A stretch of DNA of 34,147 bases from Fusobacterium necrogenes (lineage in GTDB: Bacteria; Fusobacteriota; Fusobacteriia; Fusobacteriales; Fusobacteriaceae): NCBI RefSeq assembly GCF_900450765.1, contig NZ_UGGU01000002.1, positions 1-34,147 of the forward strand, written 5' to 3'. Both the position numbers and the translations under genes were made by a program. Below are positions 5,468-24,175 of the stretch, one piece after another. Each line of letters starts with the position of its first letter. Positions within the stretch are counted from its first letter, which is position 1. The notes below the pieces were generated by a model that saw only the letters and a list, made by a program, of their open reading frames with translations, made no database searches and was not told where the DNA came from.

Positions 5468-5598
5468 TTAGGAAACCAAACCTAAGTGTTCAAAAATGCG
5501 GTGTGATCGGAAGTTAGGAAACCAAACCTAAGTGTTCAAAAATGCGGTGTGATCGGAAGTTAGGAAACCAAACCTAAGTGTTCAAAAATGCGGTGTGA
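5468..5598 (+). repeat. 46-bp tandem repeats, 2.85 copies
   Basis: Units begin with TTAGGAAACC at 5468, 5514 and 5560. The first two are complete and identical; the third matches for 39 bp up to GTGTGA. There are no spacers, so this is not a CRISPR array. Confidence 0.96.
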
Positions 5599-5604
5599 AA
5601 GATA

Positions 5605-5631
5605 AAAAGTCCTTTAAGGACTTTTTTTTTT
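5605..5631 (+). terminator. Intrinsic terminator between antitoxin RNA and toxin
   Basis: AAAAGTCCTT and AAGGACTTTT arms run into a T-run ending at 5631. In type III loci this leaky terminator sets the excess of antitoxin RNA over toxin mRNA. Confidence 0.88.
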
Positions 5632-5644
5632 ACAAGGAGGAAAA

Positions 5645-6463
5645 ATGAAATTAAAAAATAGTGGTGTTTATACAATAAAAGAAGAATTTTTTGAAAAACA
5701 TCAAGATAAATATTTAAGTGAAAATAGAGGAACAGGACGTCCATATTATTATGTATATAAAGATAAAAAAATTGATGGAATTTATTGGTTAATTCCAATG
5801 TCTACTAAATTAGAAAAAGCTATTAATAAAATAAATACTCAATATGGTGGTAATGAGGAAAAATGTCCTTTTTATGTGATAAATACTCAACAAAAAAAAT
5901 CTGTTTTTCTTATTGGGAATGTTTTTCCTATAACTGAAAAATATATCGAGGGCGAGTTTATAGAAACTTTAACAAATAAACCATTAGTAATAAAAGATAC
6001 TAAATTAATTCAAAAAATAGAGAAAAAAACAGCTAAATATATAAACTATTCTATGAGAGTAACAAAAGAAAATACTATTAATTTGAAAAAATTATTAAAT
6101 GAATTAACTGAAGAACTAAAACAAGAGAAAAATATCTCTCAAGAAATAGTTTATAATCCATTGACAGGGCATGAATTAAAAACTCTTAAAGGGTATGAGC
6201 TGCCAAAATATGATACTAACCAATGGATCAGTAAAGTAGAAGTTGAAAAAAATAATCTAAAGGTAGTAGATGGATCAGCTGCAACTGTTCCAGTAGTATT
6301 AAAGAAAGATGATAAATTAATAACTAAAGATATAGAATTTTATAATATAGCACAATTAGATATATCTAAGGAATTTAAAAAAGAACACTTTAAGGATCTA
6401 AAACTAGAGCCTAAAAAAGAACAGAAAATTTCTAAACAAAAAAGTCGCGGTATAGAAAGATAA
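5645..6463 (+). CDS. TenpN/CptN-like type III toxin with ArdC-N-like C-terminal extension
   Basis: 272 aa. Residues 1 to ~150 match the TenpN/CptN endoribonuclease pattern as I recall it: GVYTIKEEFFEKHQDKYL, then GRPYYYVY, YWLIPMST, KSVFLIGNVFPITEKYI and a lysine-rich helix. Such toxins are normally about 160-175 aa, so roughly 100 residues are extra. The extension contains NPLTGHELKTLKGYE, a central part with a W and an EFYNIAQLD segment that aligns loosely with the ArdC N-terminal domain (compare NPTTGARYKGGN and FNVFNAEQIEG in the plasmid's own ArdC), and a basic end (KKEQKISKQKSRGIER). A shortened copy of the extension ends the zeta toxin at 15001. It starts after AAGGAGG. Toxin family fairly sure; function of the extension inferred. 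Confidence 0.82.
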   Translation: MKLKNSGVYTIKEEFFEKHQDKYLSENRGTGRPYYYVYKDKKIDGIYWLIPMSTKLEKAINKINTQYGGNEEKCPFYVINTQQKKSVFLIGNVFPITEKYIEGEFIETLTNKPLVIKDTKLIQKIEKKTAKYINYSMRVTKENTINLKKLLNELTEELKQEKNISQEIVYNPLTGHELKTLKGYELPKYDTNQWISKVEVEKNNLKVVDGSAATVPVVLKKDDKLITKDIEFYNIAQLDISKEFKKEHFKDLKLEPKKEQKISKQKSRGIER

Positions 6464-6532: not shown

Positions 6533-6889
6533 TTACCATGAACTATAAAAATATATATTATGTGTGTTTAGTTCTGCTTCTATTTTTTTTAGAATTTCTA
6601 TATTCTTTTGTTCTTCTACTGTCTTTGTTAAAAAATTAAAATCCCGTTTAGTTAATTTTAAAAACTTATAATTAAAACTGTCTATATTATCATTTTTTTT
6701 CTTCTTTTGCCATACTTCAAAAACTGCTTCTTGTAAATCATAATTTTTATTAAAATACTTTATACATTCGGCCGTTTCTTCAAATTTTTCTAAGCTAATA
6801 TCCCCGTAATTTACTTTTCTATTTAATTCTTGAATGTCTTTCTCTGATATACTTTTCTTTGTTTTATAAAAATATTGATCTAAACCCAT
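6533..6889 (-). CDS. Hypothetical protein of the small MGLDQY type
   Basis: 118 aa, function not recognised. The N-terminus MGLDQYFYK resembles a class of small phage and plasmid proteins beginning MGLDMY/MGLDQY, seen in mobile elements without known role. The rest is hydrophilic and helical (charged, many Lys/Glu), with no membrane segment. It starts after AGGAGGTAAAAAA and follows the 71-aa gene, from which an RNA hairpin separates it. Probably the second gene of a two-gene accessory operon. Confidence 0.7.
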   Translation of the reverse strand: MGLDQYFYKTKKSISEKDIQELNRKVNYGDISLEKFEETAECIKYFNKNYDLQEAVFEVWQKKKKNDNIDSFNYKFLKLTKRDFNFLTKTVEEQKNIEILKKIEAELNTHNIYFYSSW

Positions 6890-6950: not shown

Positions 6951-7166
6951 TTATTGTCTTTCTGCTCTTGCTATTAATATTTCATCTTCTAAATCTTGAT
7001 ATTTTAAGTAGTAACTATTTTCAATTTTTTCTATTCTTATATTTTTTACATCTACTTCTAAAACATCTTGATTTCTGATTAATTCTAATTTTGATTGTAA
7101 AGCTTCTAAATAATTTAATTTTTTTCCTTTAAATAAATTTTCTTTGGCTTTCTCTAATGTCATCAT
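6951..7166 (-). CDS. Small hypothetical protein, MMTLEKAK family, copy 1
   Basis: 71 aa starting MMTLEKAKENLFKG. The upstream in-frame ATG at 7184 would place the GGGAGGAG binding site inside the gene, so the start at 7166 is chosen. The first eight codons and the whole upstream leader are shared with the 87-aa gene at 17637-17900, but the remainder differs. Acidic, no membrane segment, not recognised. First gene after the long palindromic leader. Confidence 0.7.
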   Translation of the reverse strand: MMTLEKAKENLFKGKKLNYLEALQSKLELIRNQDVLEVDVKNIRIEKIENSYYLKYQDLEDEILIARAERQ

Positions 7167-7222
7167 ATATACTCCTCCCATCAAAAATGATTTTTTTCTT
7201 TTTTTTATTTTTTAGTTAGCCA

Positions 7223-7251
7223 AGAATAAGCAAATTTTCGAGGGAAATCAA
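7223..7251 (-). promoter_or_regulatory. Candidate promoter inside the palindrome stem, copy 1
   Basis: On the minus strand TTGATT (7251-7246), 17 bp, TATTCT (7228-7223), upstream of the 71-aa gene. Both boxes lie in the left arm of the palindrome: the -35 box is paired with TTGATTT at 7322-7328, and the -10 box faces a partly mismatched stretch. The same arrangement recurs at 17956-17984. Confidence 0.5.
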
Positions 7252-7391
7252 TATTTTTTTGAAAAGTTTTTGAGGAACGAAGTGTAAAAAAAAGTTTTCA
7301 AAAAACTCGAAGAGCTTGATGTTGATTTACCGGGCTGAAAGAGAAAATTTGCAAAAATTCGCAGGCTGAAAAATAAAAAAAGAAATTAAAT

Positions 7392-7419
7392 AAAAAAAAC
7401 AAGGGATTTATCCCTTGTT
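7392..7419 (-). terminator. Intrinsic terminator, minus strand
   Basis: AACAAGGGAT, TT, ATCCCTTGTT at 7398-7419, followed on the minus strand by a T-run. It ends the 125-aa/270-aa operon and insulates the palindromic leader downstream. A copy follows the ardC gene. Confidence 0.88.
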
Positions 7420-7544
7420 ACATTATTTAATAATCTTTTCTAAAAAATCGAGCTTCTAAAATCCTTTTTAAGGCCTTTCCAAAAAGTTATAGGTGTTAAA
7501 TTACCTTTAAAAATTCTTCTTTTTATAAAACACGTACTTTTATA

Positions 7545-7563: not shown

Positions 7564-8375
7564 TAAAATATATTCATTTGAATACCTTTTTTTTCTTTGA
7601 TATAAATTTTACAAATCGTTGGGAATGGGAACTCATATTTTTCTAATGTATTTTCAAGACAATGTGTTCTTTTAGCTTCTTTATTAGCTTTATTTATTCT
7701 TGCTTCTTTATCTAAAATTACAAAACCATATCTATATCTTTTAGATCTATTCTCTCCTACTTTTCTTACATTTAATATATATTGATTTCCAGTTGAAATA
7801 TGTATTTGTAATTTATTAGTATTTGTTAAATCTAATAAGTCTTTATATTTTATTTTTACAAAACAGAGTTTTATTTCTTTACTTTTTTTATTTTGTCCAT
7901 ATCCTATTGTCCTAAATAAAGTAATAAAACTAAATCTAAGATGATATTTTTCTTGTAATTTATAAAATGTTAAAAAACGAGGATCTGTTTTAGGCTCTAC
8001 ATTTGTTTCAAAAGTACATAAAGTTAAAGTTTTATCTAGTTTTTCTTTATCTAGTCTATTTATAGGAAAAGATTTTGTAGCAGAATTTATATTAATATTG
8101 ATATTTTCTACCCCTTTTAAAATAACTGGAAAATTTTGATGTAATTTTTTATTATCATTAATTTTTTTATAAAATTTCTCTAACTTTCCTAAATTCTCTT
8201 CTATTATTTTTAATGTATCTTTATTTGAAGTATAGTTTATTTTTCTAATATACTCGCCGTCACTATCCATAGATAAATTTATAGTATTTTCTTCTATAAA
8301 CTCCATCATTCTATCTTGTTGATGTAAATATTTACTCCATTCTTCCCTTTGTTTATCAAGTGATTTACTCTTCAT
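7563..8375 (-). CDS. Hypothetical protein, 270 aa
   Basis: Not recognised. It starts MKSKSLDKQREEW after TTGGAGG; the longer frame to 8411 lacks a binding site. It is soluble and strongly basic in the C-terminal half (NRSKRYRYGFVILDKEARINKANKEAKRTH), which could bind nucleic acid. The start overlaps the end of the upstream 125-aa gene by 11 bp, so they form one operon. Copies of an operator-like repeat lie at both ends of the gene (7545 and 8395). An IncFII- or Rep-like role cannot be supported. Confidence 0.65.
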   Translation of the reverse strand: MKSKSLDKQREEWSKYLHQQDRMMEFIEENTINLSMDSDGEYIRKINYTSNKDTLKIIEENLGKLEKFYKKINDNKKLHQNFPVILKGVENINININSATKSFPINRLDKEKLDKTLTLCTFETNVEPKTDPRFLTFYKLQEKYHLRFSFITLFRTIGYGQNKKSKEIKLCFVKIKYKDLLDLTNTNKLQIHISTGNQYILNVRKVGENRSKRYRYGFVILDKEARINKANKEAKRTHCLENTLEKYEFPFPTICKIYIKEKKGIQMNIF

Positions 8376-12461: not shown

Positions 12462-13016
12462 ATGAAAAAGTTATCTGATGAACAAAAGAAATTATTGTTA
12501 AATATGCTAATTGAAGATGTACCTTTTACACAAATCAGAAAAAATTTAGGTTTAGGGCTAAGTTATAACTTAAAAACTCTATGTGAATACTTAGGACAAA
12601 AATATATAAAAGCTTATAATTTACATATAAACAATTTTAATAAGAAAGATCTTGCATTAATAGAAAGTAATACTAATAATATTACTAATGAAGAAATTTT
12701 AACAAAAGAAGATTTTTTAAAAGGAATGGACTTTCTAGTATCAAAATTAGCAGAAAATAAAAATATTCCTTTAGTCGAATTTGATTCTAAAATTAAAAAT
12801 AATGATGATGAAATACTTGAAATAGTTGCTCTTCCTAAAGTTCTACCTCAAAGACTTCAAGGAGAAAATTATATAATTAAGCAAACCTCTGTTAAAGTTG
12901 TAGACAATGTATGGCAAGAATTTCAACAATTTGTAAAAAGTCACAAAAATTATTCAGGTATTGAGTATTTATCACTTGCAATACTCGAATTTTTAGAAAA
13001 ATATAGAACTAATTAA
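12462..13016 (+). CDS. Putative DNA-binding protein of the replication region, 184 aa
   Basis: Not a clear family member. The first ~60 residues look like a helix-turn-helix (EDVPFTQIRKNLGLGL, YNLKTLCEYLGQKYI). The middle is acidic and Asn-rich. The C-terminal ~50 residues (TSVKVVDNVWQEFQQFVKSH, then IEYLSLAILEFLEKY) resemble the helix pair of ribbon-helix-helix or partition accessory proteins. An internal copy of the 9-3-9 palindrome (12666-12686), plus half-sites around its promoter, make it the best candidate for the protein that binds those sites. Starts after TAGGAGGG. Confidence 0.6.
   Translation: MKKLSDEQKKLLLNMLIEDVPFTQIRKNLGLGLSYNLKTLCEYLGQKYIKAYNLHINNFNKKDLALIESNTNNITNEEILTKEDFLKGMDFLVSKLAENKNIPLVEFDSKIKNNDDEILEIVALPKVLPQRLQGENYIIKQTSVKVVDNVWQEFQQFVKSHKNYSGIEYLSLAILEFLEKYRTN
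12666..12686 (+). repeat. 9-3-9 palindrome variant inside the 184-aa gene
   Basis: AGTAATACT, AAT, AATATTACT: one mismatch from the canonical half-site on the right. Confidence 0.6.
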
Positions 13017-13059
13017 ATGGTATAAGAACATATGTTATACTAAATATTCAAAAATAAAC

Positions 13060-13087
13060 TTGACAAATTGACATTAAAAATTATAAA
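13060..13087 (+). promoter_or_regulatory. Candidate rep promoter
   Basis: TTGACA (13060-13065), 16 bp, TATAAA (13082-13087). A second TTGACA starts at 13068. Transcription would give a leader of ~240 nt overlapping the antisense RNA completely. Confidence 0.6.
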
Positions 13088-13106
13088 ATAGTTAAAATTA
13101 ATATAG

Positions 13107-13335: not shown

Positions 13336-14382
13336 ATGGACTTTAATTTAACACAAGAACAAAAAGAAGCATTGGGAATTGTAGATGAAAGAAAAGACTT
13401 TTACTTTAGAGTTGAAAACGCAGCTATAGATAATCCAAAACTATTTGATACTGATAGAGAGTTTATTCTATTTATAGTCTTATCAAGATATTGTAATGGG
13501 CAAGTAGGATATCCAAGTTTAGAAACATTAGCAAAAAAAAGTCGTTGCTCTAAAAAAAATATGTTAATAGCTTTAAAAGGATTGATAGAAAAAGGGTTAG
13601 TAAAAAAAGTTCAAAGATACAATCCAGAAAATAATAGTTATCAAAGTAATTTATATTCAGTTCAAAATATAAAAGAATATATTAGTAAAGATAAAGATTT
13701 AGCAGAAACTAAAGAAGGTAGTGTCGGTAGCGACACTAGGGTAGTATCGGTAGCGACACTAGGAGGTAGTGTCGGTAGCGACACTAGGGTAGTATCGGTA
13801 GCGACACTTAATAAAGAACAAGTTATAAAGAACAATAAAAAAAATCATGGTATAGATGATGAACTTGATTTTTTTGAAAATTTATTTAAGGAATTTGAAA
13901 TAAACTTCACTAAAACAAATAAAAATTCGGTATTAAAATTAAGAAAACATTTATCACTTAAAGATACAGAAAACTATTTGAGAGAAACTTATATAGCAAT
14001 AAAAGAAAATAAAGATGTAAAAAATATAGCTGCTTTATTTTCTACCAAAATAGCAAAAGAAGAAAGACAAATTAATTCTAAAAAAAATAAAGAATATACA
14101 GAAAAAAATGATACTATAGAAAAACCTATAGAGATAGAAAAAAATAATAGCACAGAAAGATCTACAGAAATAGACTATATGGCAATATATGAAAACTTAG
14201 ATATTTATGATAAATTAAAAATAGAAGAAGAAGCAATAAATCTCTTAGTTCAGGAACAACAAATTGAAGAAACTTTTATTCTAAAAACAAAAGAAGCTCA
14301 ACCCACAATTTACAATGGAATGATGAAAAGCTATTTAAAACGTGTAATACTTAAATATAATGGTTTTAAATCCGTTGTTTAG
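13336..14382 (+). CDS. rep: Plasmid replication initiator with HTH_36-like winged helix
   Basis: 348 aa. The N-terminal domain (residues ~25-110) has FIVLSRYCNGQVGYPSLETL, then KSRCSKKNMLIALKGL and IEKGLVKKVQR, the winged-helix pattern of Firmicute/Fusobacterial plasmid and phage replication proteins. Residues ~129-158 are two 16-aa repeats (GSVGSDTRVVSVATL) encoded by iteron-like palindromes. The C-terminal part is Lys/Glu-rich and helical, possibly a host helicase contact (DnaD-like). Starts after TAGGAGG. The antisense RNA, attenuator and internal iterons support the replication role. Family level moderate, role fairly sure. Confidence 0.8.
   Translation: MDFNLTQEQKEALGIVDERKDFYFRVENAAIDNPKLFDTDREFILFIVLSRYCNGQVGYPSLETLAKKSRCSKKNMLIALKGLIEKGLVKKVQRYNPENNSYQSNLYSVQNIKEYISKDKDLAETKEGSVGSDTRVVSVATLGGSVGSDTRVVSVATLNKEQVIKNNKKNHGIDDELDFFENLFKEFEINFTKTNKNSVLKLRKHLSLKDTENYLRETYIAIKENKDVKNIAALFSTKIAKEERQINSKKNKEYTEKNDTIEKPIEIEKNNSTERSTEIDYMAIYENLDIYDKLKIEEEAINLLVQEQQIEETFILKTKEAQPTIYNGMMKSYLKRVILKYNGFKSVV
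13720..13808 (+). other. Probable replication origin: four 18-bp palindromic iterons inside rep
   Basis: AGTGTCGGTAGCGACACT at 13720-13737 and 13768-13785, and AGTATCGGTAGCGACACT at 13743-13760 and 13791-13808. Spacing alternates 23 and 25 bp (48-bp superrepeat), about two helical turns. GC-rich in an AT-rich plasmid. Internal iterons in Rep genes are known as initiator binding sites in several plasmid and phage families; the origin function here is inferred. Confidence 0.75.
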
Positions 14383-14452
14383 ATATATAACTAAAATAAC
14401 AAAATCGTTTTTAAGCATATTTTAGAGCTTTTTAAAAGGTAGTGTGTATTGA

Positions 14453-14713
14453 ATGAAATTAATTGTATATTTTCTTATTATCATTGTAAGTTTATTAATA
14501 ATTATCATGGATATTTTTAAATTTTTAGGGTATTTCTTTATTTTTGAAATAATTTTTATATATCTAGCTGATAAAACTCAAACTAGAGCTTTAATTTATC
14601 TTACAACTTCATCAATATTTTGTTTTGCTATTTTTTATGGATATTTTGCTATTATAGATTTCTTGGTTGGTGTAAAAATAGGATTGATACAGAGCCTAGA
14701 AAAAGATCAATAA
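14453..14713 (+). CDS. Small membrane protein, 86 aa
   Basis: Two to three transmembrane helices (LIVYFLIIIVSLLIIIM, FFIFEIIFIYLA, IFCFAIFYGYFAIIDFLV). Weak binding site (AAAAGGTAG, 13 bases upstream). Located between rep and the zeta-toxin operon. Similar in design to the membrane proteins at 15996 and 16321, but function unknown. Confidence 0.6.
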   Translation: MKLIVYFLIIIVSLLIIIMDIFKFLGYFFIFEIIFIYLADKTQTRALIYLTTSSIFCFAIFYGYFAIIDFLVGVKIGLIQSLEKDQ

Positions 14714-14983: not shown

Positions 14984-15000
14984 TCAATAGGATGTTTTTT

Positions 15001-15750
15001 ATGAATGAAAAAAAATTATATATTTTTGCGGGAGTAAATGGAGCAGGAAAATCAACTTTATATAGATTATCTTCAATACATTATAAAACTTTTGATTTTG
15101 GGGAAAGAATTAATACTGATGAAATTGTTAATCAAATTGGAGATTGGAGAAATCCAAAAGATCAAATAATGGCTGCAAGAATAGCTTTAACTAAAAGAAA
15201 AGAATATATAAAGCAAGGAATATCATTCAATCAAGAAACAACTCTTACAGGAAATAGTATTTTAAAAGCTATTGAAGAAGCTAAAAAAAATAGATATAAA
15301 GTAATTATGGCTTATGTAGGGGTTGAAAGTCCTGAAATAGCAAAAGAACGGGTAAAAATAAGAGTAGAAAAGGGTGGACATGATATTCCTAATGAGATAA
15401 TAGAGAAAAGATATTATGAAAGTTTAAAGAACTTAGAAAAAATAGCACCTTTATGTGATAATTTAATTATATATGATAATAGCCAAAAAAAGCATATAGA
15501 AGTTTTAGAAAAAAAAGACAATACTATAAGATATTTAATAAATGAGTATAAAATCCCTGATTGGGTAAAAGAAATAAAAGTTGTTCTTGAAAAACAGCTA
15601 GAAAATGAAAAAAATCTTTCCCAACAAATAGCCTATAATCCATTGACAGGGCATGAATTAAAAACTCTTAAAGGGTATGAGGATCTAAAACTAGAGCCTA
15701 AAAAAGAACAGAAAATTTCTAAACAAAAAAGTCGTAGTATAGAAAGATAG
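15001..15750 (+). CDS. Zeta-toxin-family kinase with tail shared with the type III toxin
   Basis: 249 aa from the ATG at 15001 (AGGATG upstream; the ATG at 14992 has no site). Zeta toxins phosphorylate UDP-N-acetylglucosamine. Visible: Walker A GVNGAGKST (residues 11-19), INTDEIV, FNQETTLTG (substrate-side Glu motif), AYVGVESPEIAKERVKIRV and GGHDIP, KRYYESL. Residues ~210-249 (NPLTGHELKTLKGYE, then KKEQKISKQKSRSIER) are not part of the kinase. They are nearly identical in DNA to the type III toxin's end, with its central 65 codons missing. Context: small gene upstream, AbrB-like gene downstream. Confidence 0.85.
   Translation: MNEKKLYIFAGVNGAGKSTLYRLSSIHYKTFDFGERINTDEIVNQIGDWRNPKDQIMAARIALTKRKEYIKQGISFNQETTLTGNSILKAIEEAKKNRYKVIMAYVGVESPEIAKERVKIRVEKGGHDIPNEIIEKRYYESLKNLEKIAPLCDNLIIYDNSQKKHIEVLEKKDNTIRYLINEYKIPDWVKEIKVVLEKQLENEKNLSQQIAYNPLTGHELKTLKGYEDLKLEPKKEQKISKQKSRSIER
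15634..15750 (+). repeat. Gene-end repeat shared with 6152-6463
   Basis: 15634-15681 equals 6152-6199 (48 of 48 bases). 15682-15750 equals 6395-6463 except for three bases. Relative to the type III toxin gene, an exact 195-bp (65-codon) segment, 6200-6394, is absent. Confidence 0.95.
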
Positions 15751-16563: not shown

Positions 16564-16842
16564 CTAAAGCAAAGAATTTAATATTAAGATATTTTCAATT
16601 AAGTAATCTTCATTTTCAATTAATTTATCCTTTTCTTTCTTCGGATCAAGTTCTATACACCATGTAATATATTTTAGAATATCACTAAAAGAAAAGTCAG
16701 AATATAACATTATATTTGGGATTCTATTTCGATCTAAACTATTGTATATTTTTAAAAGCGGTTTTGATAATTTTCTTGAGATCTCTGTATTAATGGGTTT
16801 TTCAGCTAATAAATAATTAAATGCTAACATATTTTTAGGCAT
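16564..16842 (-). CDS. Hypothetical protein, 92 aa
   Basis: Starts MPKNMLAFNYLLAEKP after TAGGAGGTAATATCT. No membrane span; helical with moderate charge. Last gene of the minus-strand run from 17900. Not recognised. Confidence 0.62.
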   Translation of the reverse strand: MPKNMLAFNYLLAEKPINTEISRKLSKPLLKIYNSLDRNRIPNIMLYSDFSFSDILKYITWCIELDPKKEKDKLIENEDYLIENILILNSLL

Positions 16843-16862
16843 AGATATTACCTCCTAAAAAA

Positions 16863-17186
16863 TTACTGGTTAAAAAAGTTTTTATATCCTATCTCTGAAA
16901 TTAAATATTTTAAAGCTTCAATATAATTTTTAAATTCTGTATGACACATGGGCAGATCATTCATCAATGTTGTTACTCTCCAGTCTTTAACTTTTGTACT
17001 TGTTAGATGTAAAATATAAGTAAATTCTTTAATTTTAAAGATTCTAACAATTTGATTTTTAGGATCTCTAAATTGAGAATAAAATTCTTCTTCTAGGTCA
17101 TCATATTGATCTAATAATTCTATATTTTTTAGTAAATTATTTACAAAATTTCTATCATCTAAATTTATTAAAGATAAATAATTCAT
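16863..17186 (-). CDS. Hypothetical protein, 107 aa
   Basis: Begins MNYLSLINLDDRNFV after AAGGGGGGAAC. Mixed alpha/beta composition, acidic N-terminal half, with ILHLTSTKVKDWRVTTLM in the middle. Not recognised. Co-directional with its neighbours, 20 bp before the 92-aa gene. Confidence 0.65.
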   Translation of the reverse strand: MNYLSLINLDDRNFVNNLLKNIELLDQYDDLEEEFYSQFRDPKNQIVRIFKIKEFTYILHLTSTKVKDWRVTTLMNDLPMCHTEFKNYIEALKYLISEIGYKNFFNQ

Positions 17187-17212: not shown

Positions 17213-17235
17213 TATAGGGGAAAATGTCCCCTATA
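17213..17235 (-). promoter_or_regulatory. Intercistronic hairpin
   Basis: TATAGGGG, seven bases, CCCCTATA, overlapping the stop of the 126-aa gene. No T-run on either side, so more likely an mRNA stability or processing element than a terminator. Confidence 0.5.
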
Positions 17236-17611
17236 ATTTGTGTAAAAAATTTTTTATTTCTAAAACTTCTTCAATCTCTTCATCAGTAAGGCCGTCTATT
17301 AATTCTTCTAGCTCATTTTCTATTGTAATAATTTGCTCAATTTTTTTTAATTCAATGTCATATATTGAATAGCCATTACTTACAATTAATTCTTCTAACT
17401 TTCCTTTTTGATCCCTTAAATTCTCGTCAGCACAGATATAGAAATCTCCGATTGTATTGTAATATAGATTTTTTCTGCACCATTGATAAAATGAAAGGTC
17501 AAAATTTTGTTCTTCTACCATATCATTAAAAAATCTTTCTAATACTTCTTCAGCTCTTCCCTCATTTTCCATCATACTTCTGAAATCTTCATATAATCTA
17601 ACATTTAGCAT
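17231..17611 (-). CDS. Hypothetical acidic protein, 126 aa
   Basis: Begins MLNVRLYEDFRSMMENEGRA after AGGAGGTTTT. Strongly acidic (long Glu-rich helices such as ELEELIDGLTDEEIEEVLEI), soluble. Small acidic proteins in transfer regions are sometimes DNA mimics or anti-defence proteins; that is only a possibility here. Confidence 0.65.
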   Translation of the reverse strand: MLNVRLYEDFRSMMENEGRAEEVLERFFNDMVEEQNFDLSFYQWCRKNLYYNTIGDFYICADENLRDQKGKLEELIVSNGYSIYDIELKKIEQIITIENELEELIDGLTDEEIEEVLEIKNFLHKL

Positions 17612-17636: not shown

Positions 17637-17900
17637 TTAAAAGTTTTTTAAATATCTTTTTAACATCTTTTCAACATTTTTTAAAGTTGTTCCATATGGA
17701 TACCAATGTTGTTTTCTCGAATATAAATTATCCATTTCTTCATAATATACATAGTATTTTACTTTTTTGTTTTTTATTTCTTTTCTAATATATAGTTCTA
17801 TTAATATATCTAAATCCTCCTCTTCATTTCTTTCTGTTTTTTTAAGGCGTAGGCTCCCATTTGTTAAAATTTCCTTTTTTGCTTTCTCTAATGTCATCAT
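17637..17900 (-). CDS. Small hypothetical protein, MMTLEKAK family, copy 2
   Basis: 87 aa from 17900 (MMTLEKAKKEILTNGSL); the ATG at 17918 precedes the GGGAGGAG site and is rejected. It shares its first eight codons and its leader with the gene at 6951-7166, then diverges completely (a basic, Tyr/Trp-rich protein with KVKYYVYYEEMDN and KQHWYPYGTT). First gene of the operon that runs to 16564. Confidence 0.7.
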   Translation of the reverse strand: MMTLEKAKKEILTNGSLRLKKTERNEEEDLDILIELYIRKEIKNKKVKYYVYYEEMDNLYSRKQHWYPYGTTLKNVEKMLKRYLKNF

Positions 17901-18158
17901 ATATACTCCTCCCATCAAAAATGATTTTTTTCTTTTTTTATTTTTTAGTTAGCCAAGAATAAGCAAATTTTCGAGGGAAATCAATATTTTTTTGAAAAGT
18001 AAAGTTTTTGAGGAACGAAGTGTAAAAAAAAGTTTTCAAAAAACTCGAAGAGCTTGATGTTGATTTACCGGGCTGAAAGAGAAAATTTGCAAAAATTCGC
18101 AGGCTGAAAAATAAAAAAAGAAATTAAATAAAAAAAAACAAGGGATTTATCCCTTGTT
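17881..18158 (-). repeat. Long dispersed repeat with an imperfect ~195-bp palindrome, copy 2
   Basis: 278 bp, matching 7147-7419 apart from a 5-bp insertion at ~18000-18004 and two homopolymer-length changes. It lies between ardC and the MMTLEKAK-type operon. The 17956-17984 promoter candidate (minus strand TTGATT, 17 bp, TATTCT) is conserved exactly. Confidence 0.9.
18131..18158 (-). terminator. Intrinsic terminator after ardC, minus strand
   Basis: AACAAGGGAT, TT, ATCCCTTGTT (18137-18158) followed on the minus strand by a nine-T run. It ends the relaxase-to-ardC operon and is part of the long repeat. Confidence 0.88.
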
Positions 18159-18170
18159 TCCTTATTAGCA

Positions 18171-20201
18171 TTATAGTGCCATTGATAATTGAGCTTTTTT
18201 ATCTTTTGATTTTTCTTTTACTTTTTCCTTACCTAATTCTTTGCTAATAACCTTTTCATAGCCTAATACTCTATCAGTTACTTTTTCTGCCTGTGCTGCT
18301 GCTCTAAATAGAACATTAGGGTCATTTTTTAATAGTTGTACCCAACTTTGAATATAAGCTTTGTTATTCTCAAAATTATATTTTAAGCCTTTTTCTTGTC
18401 CTATAAAAACACTTGAAAACTCTGCTATTAATTCTTCATAAGCATAATCTTTAGTACCAAATTTATTATTAAGAGGTCTATTTAATCTACTTGGGTGGCC
18501 TGTTGAATGTGCTATTTCATGCAACATGGTAGCATAATAGGAATTTGCACTTTTAAAACTTTCTCTTGGTGGCATACATATTTTATCATCAGTAACTGAA
18601 TAAAAAGCCATATCCCCGCCAAATGTTATTGGAACACCACAGTTTTGTTCTATAAGTTTGATTTTATTATAATTAACAGATCTTTTCTTTTCCTCAAGTG
18701 GAGGAATACCCTCTATTTGTTCTGCATTGAAAACATTGAAAGTTTTACAGAATGTTTTTACGTTAGTTTTAAGGTATTGTCTTTTTTCTTCTTTTGATAA
18801 GGTTTTAATAAAGTCTATATCTAAATCTTTTTTTGTAGAAGTGTCATAATATTTAAAAACTTCTAAAGTAACAGATTTAGCACCTTTTTTTATTTTCCAA
18901 CCTTGCTCTTTTGCCTGTAAAAACGTTACCCATCTAGGATCTTTATAGTTATGTTTTACAGCTTCAAGAGATAGTTTAATACTATTTCCACCTTTATATC
19001 TTGCTCCAGTAGTTGGGTTATAACTAGGGTTTTCCCAAGATTTTTCCCATGGAATTTTATTGTTTTCTAAGGATTTAATAACTTCTTCAACAAATTGTTT
19101 TCTACTTTCCTTAAATTTATCTTTAATATCAGCTTGCTTATATGTTTCTCTTTTAAATTTAATACTTTCCTCACTTATTTCTGTTTCTTTCATCTGATTT
19201 TTTCTAAGATTTTTGAGTAACATTCCCTCTTCACTAAAACTAAATATATCATTACCTATTATATAATGATCTGTAAGTTGTTTTTCAAGAAGAATAGAAA
19301 GATCTTCTATTGCTTCTGTTAAGCTTATATCTTGTTTAGATGGCCTAACATTTCCTGATGGGTGATTATGGATCAATTGAATACCTTTTATATCTTCTCT
19401 TAATAACGTTGAAGTTACTATTCTTAAATCAACTTGAGATTTATCTATTTGTCCTACAAAAGGATTTATAATATCTTTAATATTATTATTTTGATCGTAT
19501 AATATTACCCCTAATTGTTCTTGTGAAAGGCCGCCATAAGTTTTAATTAAAGTATTTTTAACTTCTTCTCTATTCTCAATTAAATTAAGTCCTTTTAATT
19601 CCTGTTTAGCAATATGATTTGCAAACTCTCTATATTCTTCATCATAAGAAAAGTTTTTAATTTCTTTTGAAAAATAATTTTTATTACTAGGACTAGGAGA
19701 AAAATCAGCAAAATAAATATAATCATCATAAATAATTTTATTATCTCCAGTTATAACTTGTCCTGTAAGTTTACTATATCCAATATCTTCTAGTTTATCT
19801 GTAATATATTCTAAATCTTTAAATGGTTCAGTATAAGAAATTTTTCTTAATTCAGTAGATTTAAGATCAGGAAGATTAGCAGTTAATATAAATTTTGTAG
19901 CAGAAGTGTCATAAGTATCTTTGATAACATCTTTAATAGTGTAGTCATTAATATCAAAATTTTTACATGTTCTAATTTTCCCTGAATTATTTACCATAAT
20001 AACTTGTATTTCATTTTTATTTGGAGGGTATGCGTTAATAAATTCAAGAAGTTCTTTTTCTATATTTACAGACACTTGTAATTCTCTATTTTTTAAAAAC
20101 TCAAAATAAGCTGATAATTCTTGAACTTCATTATTTCTATATTTTTGATAAAGTTCTTCTTTAGACTCACAATCAAAATATTTATAAAAACTATTCTTCA
20201 T
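18171..20201 (-). CDS. ardC: RadC/JAB-ArdC fusion antirestriction protein
   Basis: 676 aa. ArdC proteins bind single-stranded DNA, protect incoming DNA from restriction, and in plasmid pSa were reported to enter the recipient with the T-strand. Order: ~190-aa unassigned N-terminus; RadC-type JAB domain with HNHPSGNVRPSKQD (HxHx10D metal motif, residues ~275-290); ArdC N-terminal domain (~367-495: NPTTGARYKGGN, DPRWVTFLQAKEQGW, FNVFNAEQIEG); zincin metallopeptidase with MLHEIAHSTGH (HExxH, about residue 558) and the downstream ELIAEF glutamate. The JAB fusion is larger than a typical ~300-aa ArdC and resembles the multidomain 'polyvalent' proteins of conjugative elements. Last gene of the mobilisation operon. 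Confidence 0.9.
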   Translation of the reverse strand: MKNSFYKYFDCESKEELYQKYRNNEVQELSAYFEFLKNRELQVSVNIEKELLEFINAYPPNKNEIQVIMVNNSGKIRTCKNFDINDYTIKDVIKDTYDTSATKFILTANLPDLKSTELRKISYTEPFKDLEYITDKLEDIGYSKLTGQVITGDNKIIYDDYIYFADFSPSPSNKNYFSKEIKNFSYDEEYREFANHIAKQELKGLNLIENREEVKNTLIKTYGGLSQEQLGVILYDQNNNIKDIINPFVGQIDKSQVDLRIVTSTLLREDIKGIQLIHNHPSGNVRPSKQDISLTEAIEDLSILLEKQLTDHYIIGNDIFSFSEEGMLLKNLRKNQMKETEISEESIKFKRETYKQADIKDKFKESRKQFVEEVIKSLENNKIPWEKSWENPSYNPTTGARYKGGNSIKLSLEAVKHNYKDPRWVTFLQAKEQGWKIKKGAKSVTLEVFKYYDTSTKKDLDIDFIKTLSKEEKRQYLKTNVKTFCKTFNVFNAEQIEGIPPLEEKKRSVNYNKIKLIEQNCGVPITFGGDMAFYSVTDDKICMPPRESFKSANSYYATMLHEIAHSTGHPSRLNRPLNNKFGTKDYAYEELIAEFSSVFIGQEKGLKYNFENNKAYIQSWVQLLKNDPNVLFRAAAQAEKVTDRVLGYEKVISKELGKEKVKEKSKDKKAQLSMAL

Positions 20202-21315: not shown

Positions 21316-21565
21316 CTTCTTTTTGCTCTCTAGTAGTTTCTTCTTTAGTGTCTGATGTGTTTTGATTAAACATTTTAAAGTCATTAGAATGATCCTTTAT
21401 TTCGATTTTTATTTGATTTGAATTAGTAAAGAAAATAGACTTTCCAGTAACTGGCTCTTGTTCTTCTTGCTGAATATAATTTTCATCATAAATATCTAAA
21501 TCCTCTTCTGCATATATTAAAGAAAATAAATTAATTAAAATAATGATTAATAATAATTTTTTCAT
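21263..21565 (-). CDS. Small exported acidic protein, 100 aa
   Basis: Signal peptide MKKLLLIIILINLFSLIYAEE, then an acidic, disordered-looking C-terminus (KEETTREQKEDENIDEKGED). ATGA overlap with the relaxase stop. It also overlaps the TraD-like gene by ~50 bp or more, so either this C-terminus or the TraD-like start could be shorter. Function unknown; periplasmic location predicted. Confidence 0.68.
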   Translation of the reverse strand: MKKLLLIIILINLFSLIYAEEDLDIYDENYIQQEEQEPVTGKSIFFTNSNQIKIEIKDHSNDFKMFNQNTSDTKEETTREQKEDENIDEKGEDRGTEKEE

Positions 21566-24087
21566 AATGAAATACCCCTTTCTTTCTCTCTTTCTAATTT
21601 TATTTCAAGATTATTATATCCTCTTTCTTCTTGAGGTTGTAAAACTTCACTTAAATTAAATGATAGTTCTTTAAATTTATTAGTATTATATAATTTTCTA
21701 ATAGAATTAGGAGTTAATTTAATTCCTCTTTCTTTAATGTATTTTTTATCTTCCATTTCCTTAATAATTTGTAATTTCTTAAATGCTAAGGATCTTTCAT
21801 TATTAATAACTTTTAAATCTTTTTCTAATTTAGATAAGGATTTTTTAAAAGATGAAATAATATTTTCTTTTTTTTGATTAAAAGATTTATTATTTTTATA
21901 TCTTTGTATAATTTTTCTTTCTATTTCATAATAAGTTGATAGTTCTTTTTCTTTAGTTTTAATCTCTTTCATAATAAATGGTTTTTTCAAGAAATTAGAA
22001 GAGGTATATTCTTTTTCTAATCTTTCTTTTTCATTTTCTAAACTTTGAATAACTTTGTAATTTGATGAAAACTTACCTTTACTTACTTTATTTATAGTAA
22101 TTAAATCTATTGAAGTAAGATTTTCTTTTACTGGATCAGAAGATAACAATTCATTTATATTTGTAATGGCAGTCTTTATTTTTATTTCTTTATCATTTAA
22201 CATAGAAATATTATTTTTCTCATTAGTTCTTATTTCATTAAAAATAATATTTTTATCAACACTATTAATTTTTTCAAGATCGTTATATTTAGTTTCGATA
22301 ACATTAGAAATTATTTCTATATTTACACCAGTTAAAAATATAGACTTACTATATTTTTCAGGATTATTTTTTTCTATAAAATAATTATATAATGTTTTAT
22401 TTCTTTCTAAATCCGCCATTAAATTAATATTATCCATAATTAAGGTTTTATGACGTTCAAATGTAGGAAGTGAATTTCTTTCCTCTAATCTATTTTGTAA
22501 AATTTCATTAATAACAGATCTTTCTATTGAAGTATTATTATCTATTAAATTAGTAAGTTTATCAAGTTCTTCAATACTATGTTTTTTATTTAATTCATTG
22601 ATGATATTATTAGATTGAGTATTATTTTTTTCAATTTTTAAATTAAGTTCTTTAATGTCATTTTCTAAAACTTTTATAGATGATTCATCAGAAAATAGTC
22701 TAGCATTGATAAGGGCAGTATTTTTAGCTTTTAATTCTTCTTTGTATTTTAAAGTACTTTTAATAATACCCTCAATCTTGTAATTAGTCAGGATTTGAGT
22801 AGCTTTATAATTACTAGAAACAAGTTTAAATTCTTCTAATTTATACATTAATTCTAATGTATTTTTCTTAATGTATTTTTCTCTTATTTTAATAGCTGTA
22901 TTCTTAGTTTTTTCCTCATCAAATTCTTTCTTACTAACTGTATATTCTTTTTTATAAATATTTTTTAGATTTTCTAGGTGCATTTCTTTTTCACGAACTA
23001 AATCTCTTTTTAATTGTTCTACAATTCTATTATATTTATAAGATAATATATGAGTATCAGCTAACTCTAAAATTTTATTTTCTAAATTTGATTTTTTTCT
23101 TAGTAAAATTTCATTAGTTGGATTAGCAATTAATGATTTTTCAACTCTTCTTAATTCATAGTAATTTTTATTAAGTTCTCCTTTAGTAAGTATATTTAAA
23201 GTAAGTTTTTTAATTGCTCCCTCATCTAATTTATTTATTTCATCTAATCTCTCAATAATTTCAAATTCTTTAGGAATAATTTTTCCTTTTCTAATATTTA
23301 GTTTTCTTTCTTTTTCTTTTTTTAATTTTTTAGCTTGGTTGAAATTATCAACTTGTTTCTTCTCTTTATCAGAAAGTTTATTATATCCTACAGTCTTTAA
23401 TTTTTTTATAATTTTACCTGAAAGATTAATAGCTTTTCTTTCTAAACTTTCTGCTTTGTTTAAATCTCCTTGTTCAAGAGCTTCCTTTCTTCTTTCAGCT
23501 AAAGATCTACAGTCTACCCTTTCAGAAAAACCATTTTTTTCTAAGCTTGCATTTTGCAAAATTTCCCAAGATTTTCTAAGCTGCAATAATCTTTTTTTTG
23601 ATTGCCATATTCTATCTTTTTTGGCACCGCCTAAACTAGGATTTTTAGTATTAGCTTTTTTAAAAAATCTCTCTTTTTCTCTTTCTACATTATCTAATTT
23701 TCTTTCAGAAAACATTAAATGACAATGTAGATTTTTCTCTCCAGTTTCTTGATTAAAACTTTCATGTATAGCAAATGTATATGGGAAGTTCTCTCCAATT
23801 TCTTTTGTTACGAAATCTTTGATAAGATTAATAGCTTCTTGATGATTTAACTCATTAGGAATATTTAATTCAAACTCTCTATAAGCATTTCTATTTACTC
23901 CTTCAAATTCATCTGCTGCACACCAAAAATCAAGGGCATTATTACCACTAAATAGAGGTAAATTTCCATGCTCTTTATATATTAAATCCTCTTTATATTT
24001 GTATTTACTTTCTCTCAAAATATATGCAGCATGACTACCTGCATATCCTACTTTTCCTCTTTTATATGACAACCTATATTCAGCCAT
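21562..24087 (-). CDS. mobA: MOBQ-family relaxase (MobA/MobL type)
   Basis: 841 aa from the ATG at 24087, which has AAGGAGGTGTAAT upstream; the longer frame to 24204 runs through oriT. Relaxases nick oriT and stay bound to the 5' end of the T-strand. Visible: MAEYRLSYKRG, likely catalytic Tyr22 in SHAAYILRESKY, then LPYTF-like PYTFAIHESFN and the histidine motif NLHCHLMFSERKLD (about residues 118-131), then GGAKKDRIW as in RSF1010 MobA. Residues ~260-841 are a long Lys/Glu/Asn-rich coiled-coil tail without a recognised primase domain; they may carry the secretion signal. First gene of the minus-strand mobilisation operon. Confidence 0.93.
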   Translation of the reverse strand: MAEYRLSYKRGKVGYAGSHAAYILRESKYKYKEDLIYKEHGNLPLFSGNNALDFWCAADEFEGVNRNAYREFELNIPNELNHQEAINLIKDFVTKEIGENFPYTFAIHESFNQETGEKNLHCHLMFSERKLDNVEREKERFFKKANTKNPSLGGAKKDRIWQSKKRLLQLRKSWEILQNASLEKNGFSERVDCRSLAERRKEALEQGDLNKAESLERKAINLSGKIIKKLKTVGYNKLSDKEKKQVDNFNQAKKLKKEKERKLNIRKGKIIPKEFEIIERLDEINKLDEGAIKKLTLNILTKGELNKNYYELRRVEKSLIANPTNEILLRKKSNLENKILELADTHILSYKYNRIVEQLKRDLVREKEMHLENLKNIYKKEYTVSKKEFDEEKTKNTAIKIREKYIKKNTLELMYKLEEFKLVSSNYKATQILTNYKIEGIIKSTLKYKEELKAKNTALINARLFSDESSIKVLENDIKELNLKIEKNNTQSNNIINELNKKHSIEELDKLTNLIDNNTSIERSVINEILQNRLEERNSLPTFERHKTLIMDNINLMADLERNKTLYNYFIEKNNPEKYSKSIFLTGVNIEIISNVIETKYNDLEKINSVDKNIIFNEIRTNEKNNISMLNDKEIKIKTAITNINELLSSDPVKENLTSIDLITINKVSKGKFSSNYKVIQSLENEKERLEKEYTSSNFLKKPFIMKEIKTKEKELSTYYEIERKIIQRYKNNKSFNQKKENIISSFKKSLSKLEKDLKVINNERSLAFKKLQIIKEMEDKKYIKERGIKLTPNSIRKLYNTNKFKELSFNLSEVLQPQEERGYNNLEIKLEREKERGISL

Positions 24088-24129: not shown

Positions 24130-24175
24130 ACGATTGCATATCTCTGAAAGAGATATGCGTAAGCGTGCCTTTTCT
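24130..24175 (+). other. oriT: Origin of transfer (IncQ/MOBQ type)
   Basis: A perfect inverted repeat GCATATCTCT, GAA, AGAGATATGC (24136-24158) is followed directly by GTAAGCGTGCC (24159-24169). RSF1010 and pSK41 oriTs have the same order: an inverted repeat with GAA loop and then GTAAGTGCG/CCC. By analogy the nick falls after 24167. The + strand would then be transferred, with its 5' end entering through the secretion genes first and the relaxase gene last. Confidence 0.88.

Follow-up and report, generated by a model that had tools for sequence, protein, structure and literature searches.

Early gene expression of conjugative plasmids is little known outside Enterobacteria and Bacillus. Single-strand origins (sso), e.g., those of ICEBs1 and of rolling-circle plasmids, are long imperfect palindromes that start complementary-strand synthesis on single-stranded DNA. 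The establishment gene regulatory sequences of type 1 (EGeRS1) of the pLS20-family Bacillus plasmids are repeated regions rich in inverted repeats, each of which runs up to the RBS of one of several establishment operons with variable genes. They lack a constitutive sigma-A promoter, block read-through, and are most alike within one plasmid (PMC8708921). They are branched, 420-750 bp long and GC-richer than their own plasmid, and their authors rejected a single-strand-promoter model for them because the transferred strand is the non-template one (PMC8708921). F and ColIb-P9 have single-strand promoters known as Frpo and ssi (PMC9849209, PMC11541004), and F carries two copies of Frpo that are 92% identical and lie about 5 kb apart (PMC9849209). 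Here, we describe a repeated hairpin on plasmids of Fusobacteriota and compare it with these systems.

A palindrome repeated before two operons

The window, i.e., the whole stretch of DNA that was analysed (contig G000:C2, 34,147 bp), is a complete circular plasmid, because the start codon of topB straddles both contig ends. It encodes a MobA/MobL relaxase, a VirB-like T4SS, topB, a resolvase, a zeta-toxin-like gene, and many small genes without assigned function (Table 1). It also encodes, at 18171-20201, a single fused protein with a RadC-like JAB domain, an ArdC N-terminal domain and a zincin peptidase (RadC-ArdC-metallopeptidase). In topB, the region of the C-terminal zinc ribbon is present as a tandem duplicate (1785-2375, 99.7% DNA identity), and an intergenic stretch at 5468-5598 contains short direct repeats that recur about every 46 bp. 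A 272-aa protein and the zeta-toxin-like protein (5645-6463 and 14992-15750) end in near-identical C-terminal tails (NPLTGHELKTLKGYE ... KLEPKKEQKISKQKSRxIER; underlying DNA repeats of 88-97%), and this common tail is possibly a T4SS export signal. Two small contigs, G000:C4 and C5 (L101, L102), have end repeats of 4.7 kb and 3.5 kb, which suggests that they are circular plasmids probably assembled over-long.

A first-pass annotation had pointed to a duplicated palindrome before two minus-strand operons, and we recovered it as a 284-bp repeat with 97% identity (95.7% over 301 bp in a self-BLAST of the window, 7135-7427 / 17867-18166). Each copy forms a single imperfect, AT-rich hairpin of ~190 nt directly upstream of its operon, and the genes of the two operons are unrelated: the similarity of the copies continues past the RBS but ends within the first codons (MMTLEKAK). 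Folding the + strand as single-stranded DNA bore out the structure (-50 kcal/mol, z = -5.65, 0/200 shuffles as good), and in a sliding 220-nt fold scan of the whole plasmid the three most stable stretches were the oriT region, copy 1, and copy 2.

Searches with the element retrieved no full copy on the host chromosome, no Rfam family, no match at the DNA level in the plasmid collection (queries: window 1-24000 and the element), and no exact pattern in viral contigs or genome contigs. An integron attC was rejected for want of a core pair, an intrinsic terminator formed by the big hairpin itself because no T-run follows it on either strand, and a MITE because chromosomal copies are absent.

Table 1. 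Positions of the features discussed; coordinates refer to the window unless another contig is named
Feature	Coordinates	Strand	Remarks
Element copy 1 (w1)	7147..7430	-	Repeat of copy 2, 97%; conserved in G002:C73; serves operon 7169->6533
Element copy 2 (w2)	17881..18166	-	Repeat of copy 1; serves operon 17903->16564
Long imperfect hairpin, copy 1	7190..7385		From folding; core 7218-7367 used for covariance model R1
Long imperfect hairpin, copy 2	17925..18121		From folding; core 17951-18105
Intrinsic terminator, copy 1	7398..7419	-	Strong; just upstream of palindrome; predicted to end upstream minus-strand transcripts
Terminator-like hairpin, copy 2	18138..18159	-	Same sequence as copy 1; abuts palindrome
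72-aa protein (MMTLEKAKENL...)	6951..7169	-	First gene behind copy 1; no known family
118-aa protein (MGLDQYFYK...)	6533..6889	-	Second gene behind copy 1; weak match to phrog_27588, function unassigned
88-aa protein (MMTLEKAKKEI...)	17637..17903	-	First gene behind copy 2; only first residues common with copy 1 gene
126-aa protein	17231..17611	-	Behind copy 2; two relatives (46%, 56%) behind c1 of G002:C73
107-aa and 92-aa proteins	16564..17186	-	Last genes behind copy 2; no known family
MobA/MobL (MOBQ-type) relaxase	21562..24087	-	Pfam PF03389, E 2e-21
oriT	24136..24168	+	10-bp inverted repeat (24136-24158) and GTAAGCGTG/CC; putative nic 24167/24168
G005:C22 palindromes	1890-2281, 5549-5937, 14208-14601		Positions in piece L077 (G005:C22 20001-35691)

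The first-pass annotation had further supposed that anti-defence genes lie behind the element. Family searches of the genes behind the window copies gave no informative matches and no anti-defence function, and ardC directly precedes copy 2 rather than following it. Two proteins from the downstream genes had no match in the plasmid collection. The 118-aa protein has no relatives in the viral contigs and a poor predicted structure (pLDDT 43). The predicted structure of the 126-aa protein (pLDDT 79) has no PDB match with E below 1, and, apart from those given in Table 1, relatives of this protein were absent from 96 other Fusobacteriota genomes.

The hairpin is conserved on a second plasmid

We compared the window with a phylum-level set of 98 genomes, which includes the host and is taken as Fusobacteriota by gene content and base composition, and with a family-level set of 61 genomes. 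In the former, the only other plasmid with the element is G002:C73 (36,147 bp, same genus; C73 hereafter), which carries two copies (c1 and c2, at 8025-8262 and 12875-13097), both directly before minus-strand operons. The four homologous copies are each followed at once by an RBS and the start of an operon, and the genes of these operons differ. The terminator adjoins the palindrome in three copies (w1, w2, c1) and is absent at c2. The C73 copies are 82-85% identical to those of the window, so that identity is higher within a plasmid (96-97% in the window, 87% in C73) than between plasmids. A covariance model run on the 61 family genomes gave strong scores for the four copies only, and element matches outside the two plasmids were short and low-scoring. 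One weak match to the model (G018:C74:2749-2873, E 0.008; L165, about 2720-2935), which lies before small genes of a plasmid fragment, agrees with the copies in apical stem, in a 1x1 mismatch, and in the size of the loop, and is no more than suggestive of a relative.

Between the two plasmids, identity reaches 93-95% in paired columns, against 46-55% in unpaired hairpin columns and 28-47% in the flanks. Among 271 alignment cells, 99.3% are paired, and three pairs have changed on both sides; a sliding partner loses both. Because paired bases are conserved far above unpaired ones, with a few compensatory changes, the hairpin itself is under selection, although the support from covariation is thin since clear homologues occur on only two independent plasmids. 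The wobble pairs of the hairpin are all G-T on the + strand, with zero A-C, and in every copy the fold of the + (template) strand is better than that of the - strand (DNA fold z of -6.1, -5.7, -6.0, and -4.6 vs -3.0, -3.3, -3.7, and -4.0). These few sites and 60 shuffles hint that the folded form would be + (template) strand DNA or RNA of that sense.

The stem also contains the sequence that the first-pass annotation had read as a promoter, TTGATT-17-TATTCT. It is there, with the -35 fully paired and the -10 partly facing unpaired bases, but it matches in just 8/12 positions, which is at chance level: 88% of 240-bp plasmid pieces do as well on that strand. The -10 is not conserved, TATTCT becoming CTTTCT or TTTTCT in the C73 copies, and, as the varying bases are the unpaired ones, conservation follows pairing and not the promoter. 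No sigma-70-like site is common to the window and C73 elements on either strand.

Transfer polarity as read from oriT

The nic site of RSF1010 reads ...GAAACCGGTAAGTGCG/CCCTCCC (PMC4814116), and the GTAAGCGTG/CC of the window matches it. The earlier reading of an RSF1010-type oriT, with transfer of the + strand, therefore agrees with the sequence, and the minus-strand operons of the window would then face the right way for a single-strand promoter. The window oriT points away from mobL. Of 27 MobL loci in the phylum, 19 have the nic signature upstream of mobL, in each case directed away from that gene, and a script search found a perfect inverted repeat in most of these 19; two matches to the nic motif that point the opposite way are merely the GTG start codon of mobL. 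The genes behind the element had also been expected to be among the first to enter recipients, which the oriT does not support: the T4SS operon would enter first after nic, and the elements would follow, behind the whole of it, at 17.1 and 27.9 kb on this 34-kb plasmid.

On C73, mobL is on the + strand, oriT points along the - strand, and nic lies at about 15780. The elements are 2.7 and 7.5 kb after nic, i.e., in the leading region, and the transferred - strand would be the coding (non-template) strand of the downstream genes. Judging from these oriT sequences, the window and C73 are opposite in transfer polarity, whatever the absolute direction of nicking. If the element has one function, it cannot then be a single-strand promoter on the T-strand of both plasmids. 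One escape is that the C73 elements are non-functional now, and their conserved pairing argues against this. The better folding of the + strand persists on C73, where this strand would not be transferred, so that the bias follows gene direction and not transfer.

Unrelated palindromes in the same place

A third plasmid from the same genus, G005:C22 (35.7 kb, with MobL), bears three ~390-bp palindromes that are 97-99% identical (z = -11.8), are its three best-folding stretches, and are unrelated in sequence to the window element. They end 14-79 nt before minus-strand gene starts, one of their operons including a DUF4942/methyltransferase-like gene, and a conserved + strand TTGTCT-17-TATAAT (10/12) points into each. 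Its oriT suggests that the transferred strand is the template one. As these palindromes are unrelated to the window element, the layout recurs independently of sequence. For a further non-homologous palindrome, at 37.1-37.5 kb of G010:C3, the transferred strand would be the non-template one. When operon starts were scanned for long-hairpin leaders, 38/320 chromosomal starts scored as well, so that the scan is unselective in such AT-rich DNA and yields no genome-wide rate.

Discussion

A number of traits make EGeRS1 the closest described parallel. First, conjugative plasmids carry several conserved copies of either element, each directly before the RBS of a separate variable operon, and the copies are most alike within a plasmid. 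Second, both have strong predicted secondary structure and no recognisable sigma-A promoter. Third, the transferred strand is non-template for EGeRS1, as it would be on C73. Fourth, EGeRS1 blocks read-through from upstream, and here a terminator stands at the palindrome in three of the four copies. The Fusobacteriota element, likened here to EGeRS1 by description, differs in being an AT-rich single hairpin of ~190 nt, and the window copies are outside the leading region and have no ardC behind them. Quite possibly, the two work alike.

We favour, with a probability of about 0.5, the view that the element acts as a structured cis-regulatory leader, present in repeated copies, through which separate small-gene operons come under common control, in an EGeRS1-like layout. 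The mechanism would involve 1) a terminator that stops incoming transcription (in w1, w2, and c1); 2) transcripts of the downstream operons that start in or just after the palindrome; and 3) the folded palindrome, as template-strand DNA, cruciform or same-sense RNA, deciding whether they start. Since the same element is found on plasmids with opposite transfer polarity, this control would work whether or not the T-strand is the template. From sequence we infer the regulatory role itself, and expression may be tied to transfer or establishment.

The first-pass annotation had favoured a promoter of the Frpo type, in which the incoming T-strand would fold and RNA polymerase would read the hairpin as a duplex promoter and transcribe the operon behind it until the plasmid becomes double-stranded. 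This reading is supported in part: the hairpin is real, the + strand is probably the transferred one, and it is also the one that folds better, in all four copies and with G-T wobbles on this strand only. A duplicated, long and stable stem-loop before operons, with a template-strand fold, is what Frpo and ssi look like; F has just such a pair of near-identical copies about 5 kb apart (PMC9849209), and the geometry is the same on the window plasmid, where, as on G005:C22, the transferred strand would be the template. Yet the window elements lie outside the leading region, 17 and 28 kb from nic, and their supposed promoter matches no better than chance, with a -10 that differs between the plasmids, so that the element falls outside Frpo in its promoter boxes and in its position. 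Moreover, the C73 elements keep their fold, and its + strand bias, on a plasmid whose transferred strand would be non-template, as is also the case for the palindrome of G010:C3. We consider this explanation unlikely.

Distinctly unlikely, too, is a structured antisense or regulatory RNA made on the + strand through the palindrome and targeting the minus-strand mRNA at its 5' end. The better fold of the + strand and its wobbles would suit such an RNA, and the inward-pointing + strand TTGTCT-17-TATAAT of the G005:C22 palindromes could serve it, but the window and C73 copies have no conserved + strand promoter and the element matches nothing in Rfam.

A single-strand origin (sso/ssi), at which the complementary strand is started following transfer or in the course of replication, would account for a long imperfect palindrome on a mobile element, for palindromes with that role on single-stranded DNA are known, e.g., in ICEBs1. 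We nevertheless find it quite improbable: the Fusobacteriota element comes in multiple copies bound to operon starts, every copy ending at an operon RBS that an sso does not need, and its orientation to the transferred strand is not fixed, T-strand polarity being opposite on the window and C73. A passive duplicated repeat or recombination site with no regulatory role, which the direct repeats and the resolvase genes of the window, C73, and G005:C22 might suggest, is very improbable given the selective conservation of paired bases, the constant place before operons, and the short low-scoring matches elsewhere.

Returning to the structured leader, a broader reading, which we offer tentatively, is that conjugative plasmids of Fusobacteriota may carry a class of long-hairpin operon leaders of unrelated sequences, co-switching several small-gene operons independently of the transferred strand. 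Such leaders would be neither single-strand promoters nor a simple repressor system, and might possibly share the unsolved mechanism of EGeRS1. The elements provide a sequence handle on Fusobacteriota plasmid regulons of uncharacterised small genes. The same element on plasmids of apparently opposite transfer polarity would be a natural control, separating the single-strand-promoter model from other models of structured leaders, EGeRS1 included.
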